Source: Motilibacter peucedani (lineage in GTDB: Bacteria; Actinomycetota; Actinomycetes; Motilibacterales; Motilibacteraceae). Taken from it: a stretch of DNA of 64,000 nt. The notes under the pieces are model-generated. The model made no database searches. It had not been told where the DNA came from and saw nothing but the letters and a program-made list of their open reading frames with translations. The stretch covers positions 434,001-498,000 of the forward strand of contig NZ_RBWV01000010.1 in assembly GCF_003634695.1 (NCBI RefSeq), read 5' to 3'. The position numbers and the translations under genes were made by a program. Shown here in pieces: positions 50,622 through 64,000 of this stretch (positions within the stretch are counted from its first letter, which is position 1; every line of letters begins with the position of its first letter).

Positions 50622-52319
50622 GTGGTGGCGGCGTGGGGTGGAGCAGGTCCGGCTTACGCGTCACGCGCGCGCTCGGAGCTGCTCACCGGGGCCGTCGCCG
50701 TGCTCGGCACGATCGTGGCGACGGCGGTGGCCCTGCTCGTCGCGTTCCGCGTCGACCGGCCGCACCCCGACGGCCCGCTCGCGACGGTGCTGTTCACCTT
50801 CGCGGTGCTGGGCTCGCTGGTCTCGGGTGGCCTGCTGTGGTGGCGGGCCGCGGTCGTCGACAGCGGCCGGCTGGGCTGGCTGGCCGCCGTCTACCTCGCT
50901 GACGGGCTGCTCCTGGCGGTCCGCACCTTCTCCTCGACCGGCGGCAGCGAACGCTTCCCGATCCCGACGGGCGGCCAGGCGCTGAGCAGCGTGCTCACCG
51001 CGTACGCGCTGGCCGGCGGCACGCTGCTGGCAGGCCGCTCGGCACCCTTCCGGGCGCTCCCGCGCGCGCTCGCCGTCGCCGGCGTGGTCGGCCTGGGCGC
51101 GCTGCTGCTCGCCAGCCGCAACGGGCTGGTGACGGCGTACTCCGCGAGCGGGCACATGGACGCTCTGCTGCGGCTGCTGTGGGTCGCCGGGACGGTGCTC
51201 ATGGTCGTGGCCGTGTGGCGCTTCTGGACGGTGGTCGGCAGCCAGGTGGCGGTCGACTGGACGCTGCGCTGGCCGCTGGTCAGCCTGGTGGTGGCGCTGG
51301 TCTCGGTCGTCACGCGCGCAGTCTCCCTGCGCCTCTACGACGCAGCGTGGTGGACCGCGGCCGCGATGCAGGCCACCACCGGCGTGGTCCTGCTCGTCGG
51401 CCTGGTCATCGGGTCGACGCGCCTGCTGCACCAGCTCGAAGGCTTCACCGAGGGGCTCGCCGTGGGCCTGGAGAACGAGGTCCGGCGGGCAGGGTCGGGC
51501 GACGCGGTGCTGCTCCAGGACGTCGACGAGCTCGCCGACCAGCCCGCCGGTGAGCGGCCCCTGCGCCGGTCCGACGATGCGGTCGCCGACCTGCTTTCCG
51601 GTCGCGAGCTCGAGGTCGTGCTCCAGGCGGTCGTCGACCTGCGCACGGGCGGGGTCACCGGCGTCGAGGCCCTCTCGCGCATCAGCGGGCCCGCGAGCTC
51701 ACCGGCGCAGTTCTTCGCCGACGCCGCAGCCGCCGGGGTCAGCCGCGAGGCGGAGCTCCTGGCGGTGCGCCGCGCGCTCGACCTGCTGCCCGAGCTGCCG
51801 GGCACCGCGTGGCTGGCGCTCAACGTCTCGCCCGCCACGGCGGCGAGCCCCGAGCTGGCCGCGGTGCTGCGCGGCCACGACCGGCGCCGCATCGTCCTCG
51901 AGCTGACCGAGCACGCCGAGGTGGCCGAGTACGACGCGCTCGTCGACGCGCTCACCCGGCTGCGCGACGCCGGTGTGCGCGTCGCCGTCGACGACGCGGG
52001 CGCGGGGTTCTCGAGCTTCCGCCACGTCGTCCGGCTGCGCCCCCACATCGTCAAGCTGGACATGAGCCTGATCGCCGGCATCGACACCGACCCGGTGCGC
52101 CGGGCGCTGGTCGCCTCGCTGATCGGCTTCGTCAGCACCATCGGCTCGACCGTCATCGCCGAGGGCATCGAGACCCGCGCCGAGCTCGAGGTGCTCACGG
52201 CGCTGGGTGTGCGCCTCGGCCAGGGCTACCTGCTCGGGCGCCCCCGCCCGGCGCCCGAGGCGCTCGTCGTGACCCTGCCCGACACCGACGCGGCCCGACG
52301 GCTGGTCCGCCGGCCCTGA
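50622..52319 (+). CDS. Membrane-bound EAL-domain protein, probable c-di-GMP phosphodiesterase
   Basis: 565 residues. About eight membrane helices fill residues 18-285; a short linker leads to an EAL domain from about 325. GVEALSRI (EAL), [26 protein letters not shown] (DDFGxG variant), [15 protein letters not shown] and GQGYLLGRP keep all the acidic metal ligands, Lys and Gln that active phosphodiesterases need. No GGDEF or HAMP domain. The membrane part may sense a ligand. GTG at 50622 or 50625. Confidence 0.88.
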
Positions 52320-58937: not shown

Positions 58938-58941
58938 CTGC

Positions 58942-58968
58942 TCAAGCCGGCGCCCCACCTGCCGATGC
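58942..58968 (+). promoter_or_regulatory. Sigma-28 (FliA/WhiG)-like promoter before pilT
   Basis: TCAAGCCG (58942-58949), exactly 11 bases, then GCCGATGC (58961-58968). Compare the sigma-28 consensus TAAAGTTT-N11-GCCGATAA. A start about seven bases on would give a leader of about 48 bases with GGGAGGGA before the pilT GTG. The same design precedes the pilin gene. Confidence 0.6.
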
Positions 58969-59022: not shown

Positions 59023-60267
59023 GTGGAGCAGAGCCAGCCGGCCTCGGACCCCTCGGCGTACTCGTTCTTCGACGCTGCGCCCGCTGCGCCGTCGCTCGCA
59101 CCGATCGCGCTCGAGCCGCTCGGCCTGGCACCGGCCACCACGCCCGTGCCCGCAGCCCGGCTCGCCGAGCCGGCGAGCGGTGCAGCTCAGCCCAGCGGCG
59201 GGCCGCTCGACCTGCACGAGCTGCTCGACCTCATGCTCGCCGCCGGCGCCTCGGACCTCCACCTGACCTCCGGCGCCTCCCCGGCGCTGCGCGTGCACGG
59301 CGTGCTCGAGCAGCGGCGCGACCTGCCGATGATGACGCCGCCCGTGCTCCAGCAGATGGTCTACAGCATGCTGACGCAGCGCCAGCGCGAGCGCTTCGAG
59401 CAGGTGTGGGAGCTCGACATGTCCTACAGCCTGCCGGGCCGGGCGCGGTTCCGCGTCAACGTCTACCGCCAGCGCGACTCCATCGGCGCGGCCTTCCGCC
59501 TCATCCCGTTCGAGATCCAGCGGCTCGAGACCCTCGGCGTGCCGCAGTCGATCGCCGAGTTCGCCGGCCTGCCCCGCGGCTTCGTCCTGGTGACCGGTCC
59601 GACCGGCTCCGGCAAGTCGACGACGCTGGCCTCGCTGGTCGACCTGGCCAACCGCACCCGCGAGGACCACATCCTCACCGTCGAGGACCCGATCGAGTTC
59701 CTCCACCGCCACCAGCGCTGCATCGTCAACCAGCGCGAGGTCGGCTCCGACACCCAGAGCTTCACCGCCGCGCTGAAGCACGCGCTGCGCCAGGACCCCG
59801 ACATCGTCCTCGTGGGCGAGCTGCGCGACCTCGAGACCATCAGCGTCGCGCTCACGGCCGCCGAGACCGGCCACCTCGTCTTCGCCACCCTGCACACCCA
59901 GGACGCCGCGCAGACGATCGACCGCGTCATCGACGTCTTCCCGCCGCACCAGCAGCAGCAGGTGCGCGTCCAGCTCGCCGGTGCGCTGCAGGGCGTGGTG
60001 TCCCAGACGCTCGTGCCGCGCAGCGACGGCTCCGGCCGTGTGGTCGCCGCCGAGGTGCTGACCGTGACGCCTGCGATCCGCAACCTGATCCGCGAGGGCA
60101 AGACCCACCAGATCTACTCGGCCATGCAGGCGGGCGCCGCCCACGGCATGCAGACGATGGACCAGGCGCTCGCCGAGCTGGTGCGCCACAACGTCGTCAG
60201 CTACGAGACGGCGCTCACGAAGTGCCACCACGCGCAGGACTTCCAGCGGCTGACCGGCCGGGCCTGA
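59023..60267 (+). CDS. pilT: Type IV pilus retraction ATPase PilT
   Basis: 414 residues. A Pro/Ala-rich N-terminal extension of about 60 residues precedes the PilT core: LLDLMLAAGASDLHLT, Walker A GPTGSGKST, Asp box region TVEDPIEFLH, Walker B VGELRDLETI, His box AAETGHLVFATLHT and the C-terminal AIRNLIREGKTHQI. The last motif supports PilT over PilB. It hexamerises at the inner membrane base and pulls pili back. GTG behind GGGAGGGA; preceded by a sigma-28-like promoter. Confidence 0.92.
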   Translation: MEQSQPASDPSAYSFFDAAPAAPSLAPIALEPLGLAPATTPVPAARLAEPASGAAQPSGGPLDLHELLDLMLAAGASDLHLTSGASPALRVHGVLEQRRDLPMMTPPVLQQMVYSMLTQRQRERFEQVWELDMSYSLPGRARFRVNVYRQRDSIGAAFRLIPFEIQRLETLGVPQSIAEFAGLPRGFVLVTGPTGSGKSTTLASLVDLANRTREDHILTVEDPIEFLHRHQRCIVNQREVGSDTQSFTAALKHALRQDPDIVLVGELRDLETISVALTAAETGHLVFATLHTQDAAQTIDRVIDVFPPHQQQQVRVQLAGALQGVVSQTLVPRSDGSGRVVAAEVLTVTPAIRNLIREGKTHQIYSAMQAGAAHGMQTMDQALAELVRHNVVSYETALTKCHHAQDFQRLTGRA

Positions 60268-60278
60268 GGGACGGGACC

Positions 60279-61511
60279 ATGTCAACTCTCACCTTCGAGT
60301 ACGTCGGCCGCGACACCGCCGGCAAGGCGGTCAAGGGCAAGGTCGAGGCGGACTCCGCCTCGTCCGCCGCCGGGCAGGTGCGCCAGCTCGGCGTCACCGC
60401 GTCGAGCATCACCGAGGCCAGCAGGACCGGGCTCAGCCGCGAGGTCAAGCTGCCGTCCTTCGGCGCCAAGGTGAAGCTCAAGGACCTCGCCGTCTTCTCA
60501 CGGCAGTTCTCCACGATGATCAATTCGGGCCTCTCGCTGCTGCGTGCCCTGGTGATCCTCGAGAACCAGACCGAGAACGAGGAGCTGGCGAAGGTCCTCG
60601 GTCAGGTGCGCGCCGACGTCGAGACCGGTGTCTCGCTCTCGAGCGCGATGGGCAAGCACGTACGCATCTTCCCGCCGCTGATGGTCAACATGATCCGCGC
60701 CGGCGAGGTCGGCGGCTTCCTCGACTCCGTGCTCCTGCAGATCGCCGAGAACTTCGAGTCCGAGGTCAAGCTGCGGGGCAAGGTCAAGGCCGCGATGACC
60801 TACCCGGTCGTCGTCTTCGTCCTCTCGATCGTCATGTCGATCGGCATGCTGCTCTTCATCGTGCCGACCTTCTCGGGCATGTTCGCCTCGCTGGGCGGCA
60901 CCCTGCCGCTCCCGACGCGCGTCCTCATGGCGATGAGCGCCTTCCTCAAGGTCGGCATCATCCCGCTGACGCTGCTGGCCGTCGGGTTCGCCGTCTTCAT
61001 CGGCAAGGTGAAGCACACCGACCGCTTCCACGCCATCGTCGACCCGGTCAAGCTCAAGATGCCGGTGTTCGGGCCGCTGTTCCACAAGATCGCGCTGTCG
61101 CGGTTCTCGCGCAACCTCGGCACCATGCTGCGCTCCGGAGTGCCGATCCTGCAGGCGCTCGACATCGTCGCCGACACCACGGGCAACGTCGTCATCGGCG
61201 CCGGCGTGCGCGGCATCCAGGAGTCGGTGCGCCGTGGCGACTCGATCGCGAAGCCGCTCGAGCAGCACCCGGCGTTCCCCTCGATGATCGTGCAGATGCT
61301 CGCCGTCGGCGAGGACACCGGCGCGCTCGACTCGATGCTGCTGAAGATCAGCGACTTCTACGACCAGGAGGTCGAGGCGACCACCGAGTCGCTGACCGCC
61401 CTCATCGAGCCGCTGATGATCGCCTTCCTCGGCGCGGTGGTCGGCAGCATGATCGTGGGCCTCTACATGCCGATCTTCAAGATCTTCGACCTGGTGGGCA
61501 AGCAGGCCTGA
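60279..61511 (+). CDS. pilC: Type IV pilus inner-membrane platform protein PilC
   Basis: 410 residues. Two repeats of the GspF/PilC domain, each ending in membrane helices: LAVFSRQFSTMINSGLSLLRAL and LSRFSRNLGTMLRSGVPILQAL (quoted by FSRQFSTMINSG and FSRNLGTMLRSG), with VKAAMTYPVVVF and MLAVGEDTGALDSML. Three membrane segments in all. It links the ATPase to the growing pilus. ATG 11 bases after pilT, same operon. Confidence 0.94.
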   Translation: MSTLTFEYVGRDTAGKAVKGKVEADSASSAAGQVRQLGVTASSITEASRTGLSREVKLPSFGAKVKLKDLAVFSRQFSTMINSGLSLLRALVILENQTENEELAKVLGQVRADVETGVSLSSAMGKHVRIFPPLMVNMIRAGEVGGFLDSVLLQIAENFESEVKLRGKVKAAMTYPVVVFVLSIVMSIGMLLFIVPTFSGMFASLGGTLPLPTRVLMAMSAFLKVGIIPLTLLAVGFAVFIGKVKHTDRFHAIVDPVKLKMPVFGPLFHKIALSRFSRNLGTMLRSGVPILQALDIVADTTGNVVIGAGVRGIQESVRRGDSIAKPLEQHPAFPSMIVQMLAVGEDTGALDSMLLKISDFYDQEVEATTESLTALIEPLMIAFLGAVVGSMIVGLYMPIFKIFDLVGKQA

Positions 61512-61646: not shown

Positions 61647-62213
61647 ATGCGTTCCCTGCCCGCCCGCCTCTCTGCTGTCGCGATCACCGCCGCGGCCCTG
61701 CTCAGCGTCGCCGGCCCGGCCTCCGCCCACGGTGGCGAGGGCACCGACGGTCCCGCGCCCGGCGAGCACCTGACCAACGCCCAGCGCCACGCCATCGTCG
61801 AGGCCACCCGCCAGTTCAAGGACCTGCACGCCGCCGAGGCGGCGGGGTACGTGCCGGCGAGCGAGTGCACGGAGCTGCCCGGCGTGGGTGGCATGGGTGT
61901 GCACTACCTGAACCCGGCCTACGCCTCCGACGCGGTCGTCGACCCCCTCAAGCCCGAGGTGCTCGTCTACTACCCGACCAAGCACGGTCGCCTGCGCCTC
62001 GGCGCGGTCGAGTACTTCGTCGCCGATGCCGACCAGGACCTGGCCACCGACGACGACCGGCCCAGCCTGCTGGGCCACGAGTTCAACGGCCCCATGCCCG
62101 GCCACTCCGCGGACATGCCCATCCACTACGACCTGCACATCTGGCTCTACGAGAAGAACCCGCTGGGCCAGCTGCAGCCGTGGAACCCGGACGTCTCCTG
62201 CGCCGGGAGCTGA
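61647..62213 (+). CDS. Secreted protein of unknown family within the pilus locus
   Basis: 188 residues with a clear signal peptide cleaved after PASA (residue about 27), leaving a mature N-terminus HGGEGTDG. Conserved-looking segments are VEATRQFKDLHAAEAAGY, GVGGMGVHYLNPAY, LLGHEFNG, and the tail IHYDLHIWLYEKNPLGQLQ with NPDVSC. Several His (HY, GHEF, HYDLHIW) could bind a metal. Two Cys remain in the mature part. I recall similar exported proteins of unknown function in bacteria. GGAGAAG lies before the ATG; its own promoter and a strong terminator bracket it, so it is not simply part of the pilC transcript. Confidence 0.75.
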   Translation: MRSLPARLSAVAITAAALLSVAGPASAHGGEGTDGPAPGEHLTNAQRHAIVEATRQFKDLHAAEAAGYVPASECTELPGVGGMGVHYLNPAYASDAVVDPLKPEVLVYYPTKHGRLRLGAVEYFVADADQDLATDDDRPSLLGHEFNGPMPGHSADMPIHYDLHIWLYEKNPLGQLQPWNPDVSCAGS

Positions 62214-62233: not shown

Positions 62234-62281
62234 CCTGAGGGAGCGGCCCCGTTCCTCGGGGCCGCTCCCTCAGGTCTTTTT
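62234..62281 (+). terminator. Rho-independent terminator between the secreted-protein gene and pilA
   Basis: A perfect 18-bp stem, CCTGAGGGAGCGGCCCCG with its complement, five-base loop TTCCT, then GTCTTTTT. The clearest intrinsic terminator in the window. Confidence 0.92.
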
Positions 62282-62283
62282 GC

Positions 62284-62310
62284 TAAAGCCCCGGTTCCCG
62301 ACGCCGATGA
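62284..62310 (+). promoter_or_regulatory. Sigma-28 (FliA/WhiG)-like promoter of the major pilin gene
   Basis: TAAAGCCC (62284-62291), 11 bases, GCCGATGA (62303-62310). It matches TAAAG at -35 and GCCGAT-A at -10 of the sigma-28 consensus with exact spacing. It begins just after the upstream terminator and gives a leader of about 65 bases before the pilin ATG. Confidence 0.65.
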
Positions 62311-62381
62311 GGAGTGTGTCAACGAGCAGTGCGGTCGACTACCCGGCGCGCAGCTCACTACGTAGAGAAGGGTTCACCGCA

Positions 62382-62798
62382 ATGCTCGCTCGCATCCGCA
62401 AGAGCATGGAGAACAAGGAGCAGGGCTTCACCCTCATCGAGCTCCTCGTTGTCATGATCATCATCGGCATCCTCGCCGCGATCGCCATCCCGACGTTCCT
62501 CAACCAGCGCAAGAACGGCTACCGCACCGCGCTGAAGAGCGACCTCAAGAACGCTGCGACCGCATTCGAGACCAAGGCCGTCGACAACTCTGGCGACTAC
62601 TCCGGTCTGACCATCACCGCGGGCGCCACCGGCGACTACCAGGTCTCCAACGGCGACACCATCAGCGTCCAGAAGACCGGCACCACCGGCTACTGCCTCA
62701 AGGGCGTCTCGCCGAAGCTCGACACGACCGACGTCCTCTACTTCGACAAGAAGACCGGTCTGATCACTGCGACCGACTGCAGCGCCTTCACCTACTAG
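62382..62798 (+). CDS. pilA: Type IV major pilin
   Basis: 138 residues. A 15-residue charged leader ends at Gly15, cut by prepilin peptidase before Phe16 (QG/FTLIELLVVM), with Glu at mature position 5. The hydrophobic spine (FTLIELLVVMIIIGILAAIA, residues 16-35) is followed by a small head with Cys105 and Cys133, which could close a C-terminal disulfide loop. Codons are of the strict GC-ending kind used for highly expressed genes, with AAG and AAC dominant. AGAAGG precedes the ATG. Hairpins on both sides isolate it. Confidence 0.94.
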   Translation: MLARIRKSMENKEQGFTLIELLVVMIIIGILAAIAIPTFLNQRKNGYRTALKSDLKNAATAFETKAVDNSGDYSGLTITAGATGDYQVSNGDTISVQKTGTTGYCLKGVSPKLDTTDVLYFDKKTGLITATDCSAFTY

Positions 62799-62813: not shown

Positions 62814-62856
62814 CAGAGAGGGAGTGGGAGCGCCTGTCGCTCCCGCTCCCTCTCTG
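62814..62856 (+). terminator. Long hairpin after pilA
   Basis: A 19-bp stem with one G-U wobble, CAGAGAGGGAGTGGGAGCG against its complement, loop CCTGT, 16 bases after the pilin stop, with no T-run. It probably stops most transcripts or protects the pilin mRNA end while letting some read on into the minor pilin. Confidence 0.7.
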
Positions 62857-62900: not shown

Positions 62901-64000
62901 ATGAAGCTCGCAGCGACCAGGTCCGACGACGGCTTCTCCCTCGTCGAGGTGCTCTGGGCGATGGTCATCTTCGGGGTCGTCTCGACCGCCGTCATCTCGA
63001 CCGTGCTGGTCACGCAGACCCGCACCCTCGACAACACCCGGCGCAGCCAGGCCTCCAGCGTCGCCTCGACGACAGTCGACACGCTGCGGGCGCAGGCTGC
63101 CGGCAACGGGTTCCGCGACACCCTGCGCACCACAGGGCGCACGACGAAGGACGTCACCGTCAACGGCTCCGTCTACCACGTGGTCACCGACACGGTCTGG
63201 CAGACGCGGTCGCAGGCTGCCAGCGGCTGCGGCGCGGCCGTCGACCGCTCCTACGTCCAGGCCCACGTGCAGGTCACCTGGGACCGCATGGGCTCCACCC
63301 AGCCCGTCCGCGCGGACACGATCCTCACGCCGCTCGCCGGCACCTACGACGACACGCTCGGCTCGATCTGCCTGAAGGTCACTGACCACAACGGCGCGCC
63401 GGTCGCCGGTGCGACGGCCGTGCTCGACGGCAGCGCGACGCAGGTCACGACCGCCCAGGGCGTGACGCTGTTCCCCTACCTCACCGCAGGCAACCACAGC
63501 GTCTCCGTGTCGGGCTCCGACCTGGTGACCCGCCAGGGCGCCACCGCCACCGCCGCCACGGCAGCGGTCACGGCCGGCGCCACGACGAGCATCCCGCTCG
63601 ACATGGACCACGCCGCAGCCGTGCAGCTCGTCGGCACGAACTTGCTGCCTGCCAGTGTCAACGTCGCCCTGACCGCCTCGAACAGCGGCATGAGCCCGAC
63701 GTGGCGCGCCATGGGCACGCTGACCCGCACTCCCGGTGACAGCACGCTGCTGACGGGCCTCTACCCGTTCGCCAACGGCTACGCGCTGAGCGTCGGCGCC
63801 TGCACGACGCCGTCGGTGCCCGCGGCCCAGACGCCCGCCGGTGCGATCGGCTCGGTCGCCCTGCCCAAGGTGACGCTGACGACGACCGCGTCCGTCGTCA
63901 CGGCGACCTACTGCCCCGGTCCCGGCCCCGGCCCTGGTCCCGGGCAGACCGTCGTGTCCATCCCCGTGACGCCGAACGTCCCCACGACCGTCGCGCTCTG
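62901..64000 (+). CDS. Large minor pilin/pseudopilin, cut by the window end
   Basis: Open from ATG 62901 to the edge, over 366 residues. An 11-residue leader ends at Gly11 before FSLVEVLWAMVIFG, the prepilin cleavage site and spine with Glu at mature position 5. Then a helical stalk with TLDNTRRSQASSVA, a segment with Cys pairs, a domain like carboxypeptidase-regulatory/Ig-type beta folds (SICLKVTDHNGAPVAGATAV and LFPYLTAGNHSVSVSG, each about 20 residues at most) and a run of Pro-Gly near the end (about residue 345). Far larger than normal minor pilins, so it could be a tip adhesin. GGAGGAGG lies before the ATG. Confidence 0.85.
   Translation, partial: MKLAATRSDDGFSLVEVLWAMVIFGVVSTAVISTVLVTQTRTLDNTRRSQASSVASTTVDTLRAQAAGNGFRDTLRTTGRTTKDVTVNGSVYHVVTDTVWQTRSQAASGCGAAVDRSYVQAHVQVTWDRMGSTQPVRADTILTPLAGTYDDTLGSICLKVTDHNGAPVAGATAVLDGSATQVTTAQGVTLFPYLTAGNHSVSVSGSDLVTRQGATATAATAAVTAGATTSIPLDMDHAAAVQLVGTNLLPASVNVALTASNSGMSPTWRAMGTLTRTPGDSTLLTGLYPFANGYALSVGACTTPSVPAAQTPAGAIGSVALPKVTLTTTASVVTATYCPGPGPGPGPGQTVVSIPVTPNVPTTVAL

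Follow-up and report, generated by a model that had tools for sequence, protein, structure and literature searches.

The window, a stretch of 64,000 nucleotides from Motilibacter peucedani, ends in a type IV pilus gene cluster, in which pilT and pilC are followed by the major pilin gene pilA and a minor pilin-like gene (Table 1). The interval between pilC and pilA also contained a gene for an apparently secreted protein of 188 aa (61647-62213) without a Pfam or NCBIfam match. A long GC-rich inverted repeat lacking a T-run lay in the gap that separates pilA from the minor pilin-like gene (62816-62856), and a membrane protein with an EAL domain of the c-di-GMP phosphodiesterase type was encoded approximately 6.6 kb upstream of the pilT promoter (50622-52319).

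Table 1. Features at the pilus end of the window, with riboswitch examples from the pilA leaders of relatives
Feature	Position	Strand	Basis
Predicted sigma-28/WhiG-type promoter of pilA, CTAAAG N14 GCCGATGA	62283..62310	+	consensus match, matrix rank, family conservation
Intrinsic terminator, 18 bp stem and T-run, between the preceding gene and pilA	62234..62274	+	
Short pilA leader with Shine-Dalgarno; TGTCAACGAGC stretch kept, c-di-GMP riboswitch absent	62311..62381	+	
Gene of the major type IV pilin, pilA; product of 138 aa with methylation motif at the N-terminus	62382..62798	+	PF07963, E=3.6e-10
Second predicted sigma-28-type promoter, CTCAAG N14 GCCGATGC, aroE-pilT gap	58941..58968	+	window rank 1
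Retraction ATPase gene pilT, which opens the pilT-pilC unit	59023..60267	+	TIGR01420, 489 bits
pilC, inner-membrane platform protein	60285..61511	+	PF00482; NF052607
Minor pilin-like gene 3' of pilA, extending past the window end	62901..64000	+	PF07963
c-di-GMP-I riboswitch (examples), between sigma-28-type promoter and pilA	L150:8447-8526; L163:8478-8563; L174:6506-6591; 16 other loci		

The sigma-28 (FliA/WhiG) type was defined here by a -35 box TAAA, a spacer of 15-16 nt and a -10 box GCCGATAA. The plus strand at 62284-62310 reads TAAAGCCCCGGTTCCCGACGCCGATGA, that is, TAAA-N15-GCCGATGA, which differs by one base from the consensus TAAA-N15-GCCGATAA; the two boxes thus agreed with it at 11 of 12 positions, at the required spacing. 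The first-pass annotation had described this element as TAAAGCCC-N11-GCCGATGA, with sigma-28 spacing and most of the consensus bases, lying between a terminator and pilA. The element was indeed present as described, following the terminator and ending 71 nt upstream of the pilA ATG. No sigma-70-like site was found in the pilA upstream region. When the window was scanned with a matrix built from relatives only, the site ranked second of 127,942 positions, and both boxes were found at the identical N14 spacing in the source genome and four genomes of the same family.

A single site taken alone is weak evidence, and GCCGATGA is frequent in high-GC coding DNA, so that the match might have arisen by chance in the intergenic region, with pilA expressed from an unrecognised housekeeping promoter or another promoter. 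The first-pass annotation had itself noted that many equally good matches at random places would count against the reading. The pattern TAAA-N15-GCCGATRA was, however, found only once in the whole genome (pattern search, 4,187,555 bases), at the pilA site, and allowing one mismatch added three further sites, compared with two for the reversed control. This uniqueness, the conserved spacing in the family and the lack of a recognisable sigma-70-like site all argue against a chance match, as do the relatives described below.

A second site of the same type, overlooked in the first-pass annotation, was detected in front of pilT. The sequence CTCAAGCCGGCGCCCCACCTGCCGATGC lies in the gap between the end of aroE (58937) and the pilT start, matches as well as the pilA site, and held the first rank with the relatives-only matrix. 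A third site was located beyond the window, 85 nt before pilM (C10:501857). The relaxed pattern CTMAAG-N14/15-N-CCGAT occurred at 15 places in the genome, compared with two for the reversed control. Three of them were the sites before pilT, pilA and pilM, within the type IV pilus cluster of approximately 10 kb, and one preceded a flagellin gene (C9:265108); the remaining 11 were mostly intragenic or lacked a convincing downstream start. The enrichment before pilus genes for which a genome-wide scan had been proposed was seen in these pattern searches, and the placement was non-random, with a coherent set of genes downstream (pilT, pilA, pilM and flagellin here, and pil genes in 22 of 34 loci when relatives were included). 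Upstream of a second pilin gene, unlinked to the cluster (on C12), CTAAGC-N14-GCCGATAG nearly matched the motif at a distance of 61 nt from the gene start. No dgc or pde target carrying the strict motif was recognised in the source genome. A looser pattern (CTMA-N16-GCCGATRM with one mismatch) gave 166 matches compared with 121 for the control and was discarded as uninformative.

The genome encoded two sigma factors of the appropriate family, in agreement with the expectation of a whiG or fliA gene. One is a WhiG ortholog (C10:27896; NF004935, 424.8 bits with a cut-off of 343), whose best PDB match was WhiG of Streptomyces venezuelae (6pfj_A, E=5e-116) and whose gene lies between those of a recombinase and an M23 peptidase. 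The other is a FliA-like factor encoded inside the flagellar cluster (C9:276733). A gene for the anti-sigma factor RsiG was also present (C9:97824-98435), its product matching the S. venezuelae RsiG chain 6pfj_T with E=2e-30. This RsiG is of the twin-motif type, with ESDLSYVRRLLQGRLD and EDEVSHSRRDVQTVVD as intact copies of the c-di-GMP motif E(X)3S(X)2R(X)3Q(X)3D. The presence of the WhiG ortholog and the enrichment of the motif before pilus genes supported the reading of the pilA element as a sigma-28-type promoter. Elsewhere in the genome (C11, around 173.7k, L105), another RsiG-like protein, in which just one c-di-GMP motif is intact, was encoded near nth and a Crp-family gene.

The analysis was extended to the type IV pilus loci of 33 relatives, making 34 with the source genome; these are related genomes and not independent samples. 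When TMAAG-Nx-CCGAT was counted in the relatives over x=0-40, the sense strand gave 12 pairs at x=15 and 38 at x=16, while other spacings gave 11 at x=18, 8 at x=9 and at most 6 elsewhere, and the antisense strand gave at most 2 at any spacing. With stricter boxes, 44 sense sites and no antisense site were found in the 34 pilus loci, compared with a mean of 1.1 at wrong spacings, and at least one strict site was present in 22 of the 34 genomes, belonging to 13 families. The proteins encoded downstream of the 44 sites matched PilT/PilB, PilA, minor pilin or PilM in 35 cases (BLAST), roadblock-type proteins in six (Robl_LC7 confirmed for two) and a pilin-like protein in one. One further site, near a contig end, had no called gene, but a riboswitch and then the start of a pilin lay after it, and another was doubtful, as it preceded an O-antigen-ligase-like frame (G015, position 1770). 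De novo search upstream of pilT returned CTCAA-N17-CCGAT as the top dyad, in 11 of 29 regions of relatives, compared with at most 6 in shuffled sequences. Some genomes with WhiG had no strict motif, and of these the same-family genomes G002 and G004 carried one-base variants. The sense-only spike at a fixed spacing and the de novo recovery of the dyad made a chance match before pilA highly improbable, and the counts are evidence, at the level of sequence, that putative sigma-28-type pilus promoters recur within the class, in 13 families or more. In relatives, genes for Roadblock/LC7 proteins repeatedly followed a sigma-28-type site within the pilus cluster (L154:878-1606, L155:533-1576 and similar cases), and these proteins are perhaps MglB-like polarity regulators.

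Judged from the source genome alone, either of the two sigma factors might read these promoters, as it is flagellated (four flagellins and a fifth flagellin-domain match) and possesses the second sigma-28-like factor. The FliA-like factor might read the pilA promoter so that pili are produced together with flagella, as reported for Actinoplanes zoospores, with RsiG and c-di-GMP acting indirectly or not at all. Besides the position of its gene among the flagellar genes, this is favoured by the flagellin promoters of this genome, which have boxes and spacing nearly those of the pilA site (CTCA- or TTCA-N16/17 followed by a CCGATGN-like -10); indeed, neither the -35 sequence nor the spacing cleanly separated flagellin from pilus promoters. 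In 16 genomes without flagellin, however, where WhiG was the only FliA/WhiG match above 140 bits, the motif was retained before pilus genes in 14 of the pilus loci, and four flagellated genomes having FliA-like sigmas and no strong RsiG match (G016, G038, G057 and G065) lacked the motif in their pilus loci. Reading by the FliA-like factor was thus considered unlikely, and WhiG is the likeliest reader because most of the motif-bearing relatives possess WhiG and lack flagellin. The motif was present in 22 of 27 genomes with a strong RsiG match compared with none of the seven without (p=1.5e-4, without correction for phylogeny). Its association with the presence of WhiG alone was weak (p=0.07), since WhiG occurs in almost every pilus genome sampled, and the presence of RsiG separates them better. 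Two MAGs with the motif (G053 and G031) yielded no full WhiG, perhaps owing to assembly gaps.

Taken together, it is likely that the pilA element functions as a promoter of the sigma-28 family, that the pilus cluster has three or more such promoters, that WhiG is the most probable reader, and that RsiG and c-di-GMP gate it. We infer that transcription starts at the pilA site and that WhiG, rather than the FliA-like factor, acts there under RsiG; the gating of WhiG by RsiG in this organism is proposed by analogy with the biochemistry of Streptomyces and Rubrobacter (PMC8325347). RNA polymerase with WhiG would transcribe the pilT-pilC, pilA and pilM units together. At high c-di-GMP, RsiG would bind the messenger and sequester WhiG, turning the pilus units off, and falling c-di-GMP would release WhiG so that the units are again transcribed together.

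Control of type IV pili by RsiG-(c-di-GMP)-WhiG is known from Rubrobacter radiotolerans, where the role of WhiG was supported by start-site mapping (PMC8325347), and the first-pass annotation described this work correctly. Sigma-28-type promoters within the pilus cluster, a WhiG ortholog and several pil units under one sigma factor (predicted here) are common to Rubrobacter and the source genome. The two differ in that the RsiG of Rubrobacter is a single-motif homodimer while that of the source genome is twin-motif as in Streptomyces, that the -35 is TAAA in Rubrobacter and mostly CTCAAG in the source lineage, and that Motilibacter is flagellated and had no recognised dgc or pde target with the strict motif. 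The suggestion that the pilA site is a further case in a different actinomycete order held with respect to a WhiG-type pilus promoter, but not as an isolated case, as the pattern is class-wide (22 of 34 pilus loci). In Actinoplanes missouriensis, the type IV pili of zoospores are under FliA-family sigma factors, according to Kimura 2019 as cited in PMC8325347. Like Motilibacter, this actinomycete has both flagella and type IV pili and places the two under WhiG-like flagellar sigmas (predicted here), but it lacks RsiG (PMC8325347), which the source genome has. The Streptomyces sporulation switch consists of WhiG and a twin-motif RsiG orthologous to those of the source genome, but drives whiH and whiI, unlike the pilus role proposed here. 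The four sampled Streptomyces-like genomes (family f19) lacked pilT; when they were scanned for calibration on known WhiG targets, none of the inspected matches could be recognised as whiH or whiI.

In the relatives, a second element was found in the pilA leaders. A c-di-GMP-I riboswitch (RF01051 or RF03167), counted when the aptamer score exceeded the Rfam gathering cut-off, was present in the pilA leaders of 17 of the 34 genomes, and also in those of two additional MAG loci (L013 and L018), 21-33 nt after the promoter -10. A sigma-28-type dyad was located within 75 nt upstream in 17 of these 19 leaders, compared with a mean of 0.07 in shuffled sequences and none on the reverse strand. The seven genomes that lacked a strong RsiG match showed no riboswitch in their pilus loci. 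In the source genome, by comparison with these relatives, none was detected in the window at the cut-off, nor at the pilA locus (L040) with a relaxed threshold. Its pilA leader retains only the TGTCAACGAGC stretch that precedes the aptamer in relatives, which suggests that the riboswitch was lost by deletion.

WhiG is known above all for its part in sporulation, yet many actinobacteria bearing WhiG do not sporulate. According to a 2013 review, what WhiG does in simple motile actinobacteria had yet to be analysed (PMC4255298); an answer came from the 2021 study, for Rubrobacter only (PMC8325347). The pattern observed here points to type IV pili as a general target of WhiG across the class, constituting a testable regulon, and to the riboswitch as an additional layer at which many relatives also sense c-di-GMP. 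A broader proposal, for and against which we regard the chances as evenly balanced, is that across the class WhiG-RsiG originally controlled type IV pili, its use in Streptomyces sporulation being derived. In most pilus-bearing lineages, pilA would then be under two stacked c-di-GMP sensors, a promoter-gating anti-sigma factor and a c-di-GMP-I riboswitch in the transcript, so that pilin output could follow a band of c-di-GMP concentration and not a simple threshold; the source genome would have kept the promoter layer and lost the riboswitch. The promoter arrangement with a twin-motif RsiG in a lineage other than Rubrobacter, the recurrence in at least 13 families and the stacking on a riboswitch at the pilA of relatives are what this analysis adds. 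In the literature searched, which included few subscription journals, the class-wide reach and the stacked c-di-GMP sensing appear unreported.

A hairpin of the form GGNCC-CACGGAYG-GGNCC was observed before the Shine-Dalgarno in flagellin leaders of several families (L035-L036 here and L192-L208 in relatives), although two flagellin leaders folded no better than shuffled sequences. Its ACGGA loop resembles a CsrA site, and a csrA-like gene is located in the same cluster (C9:281039).
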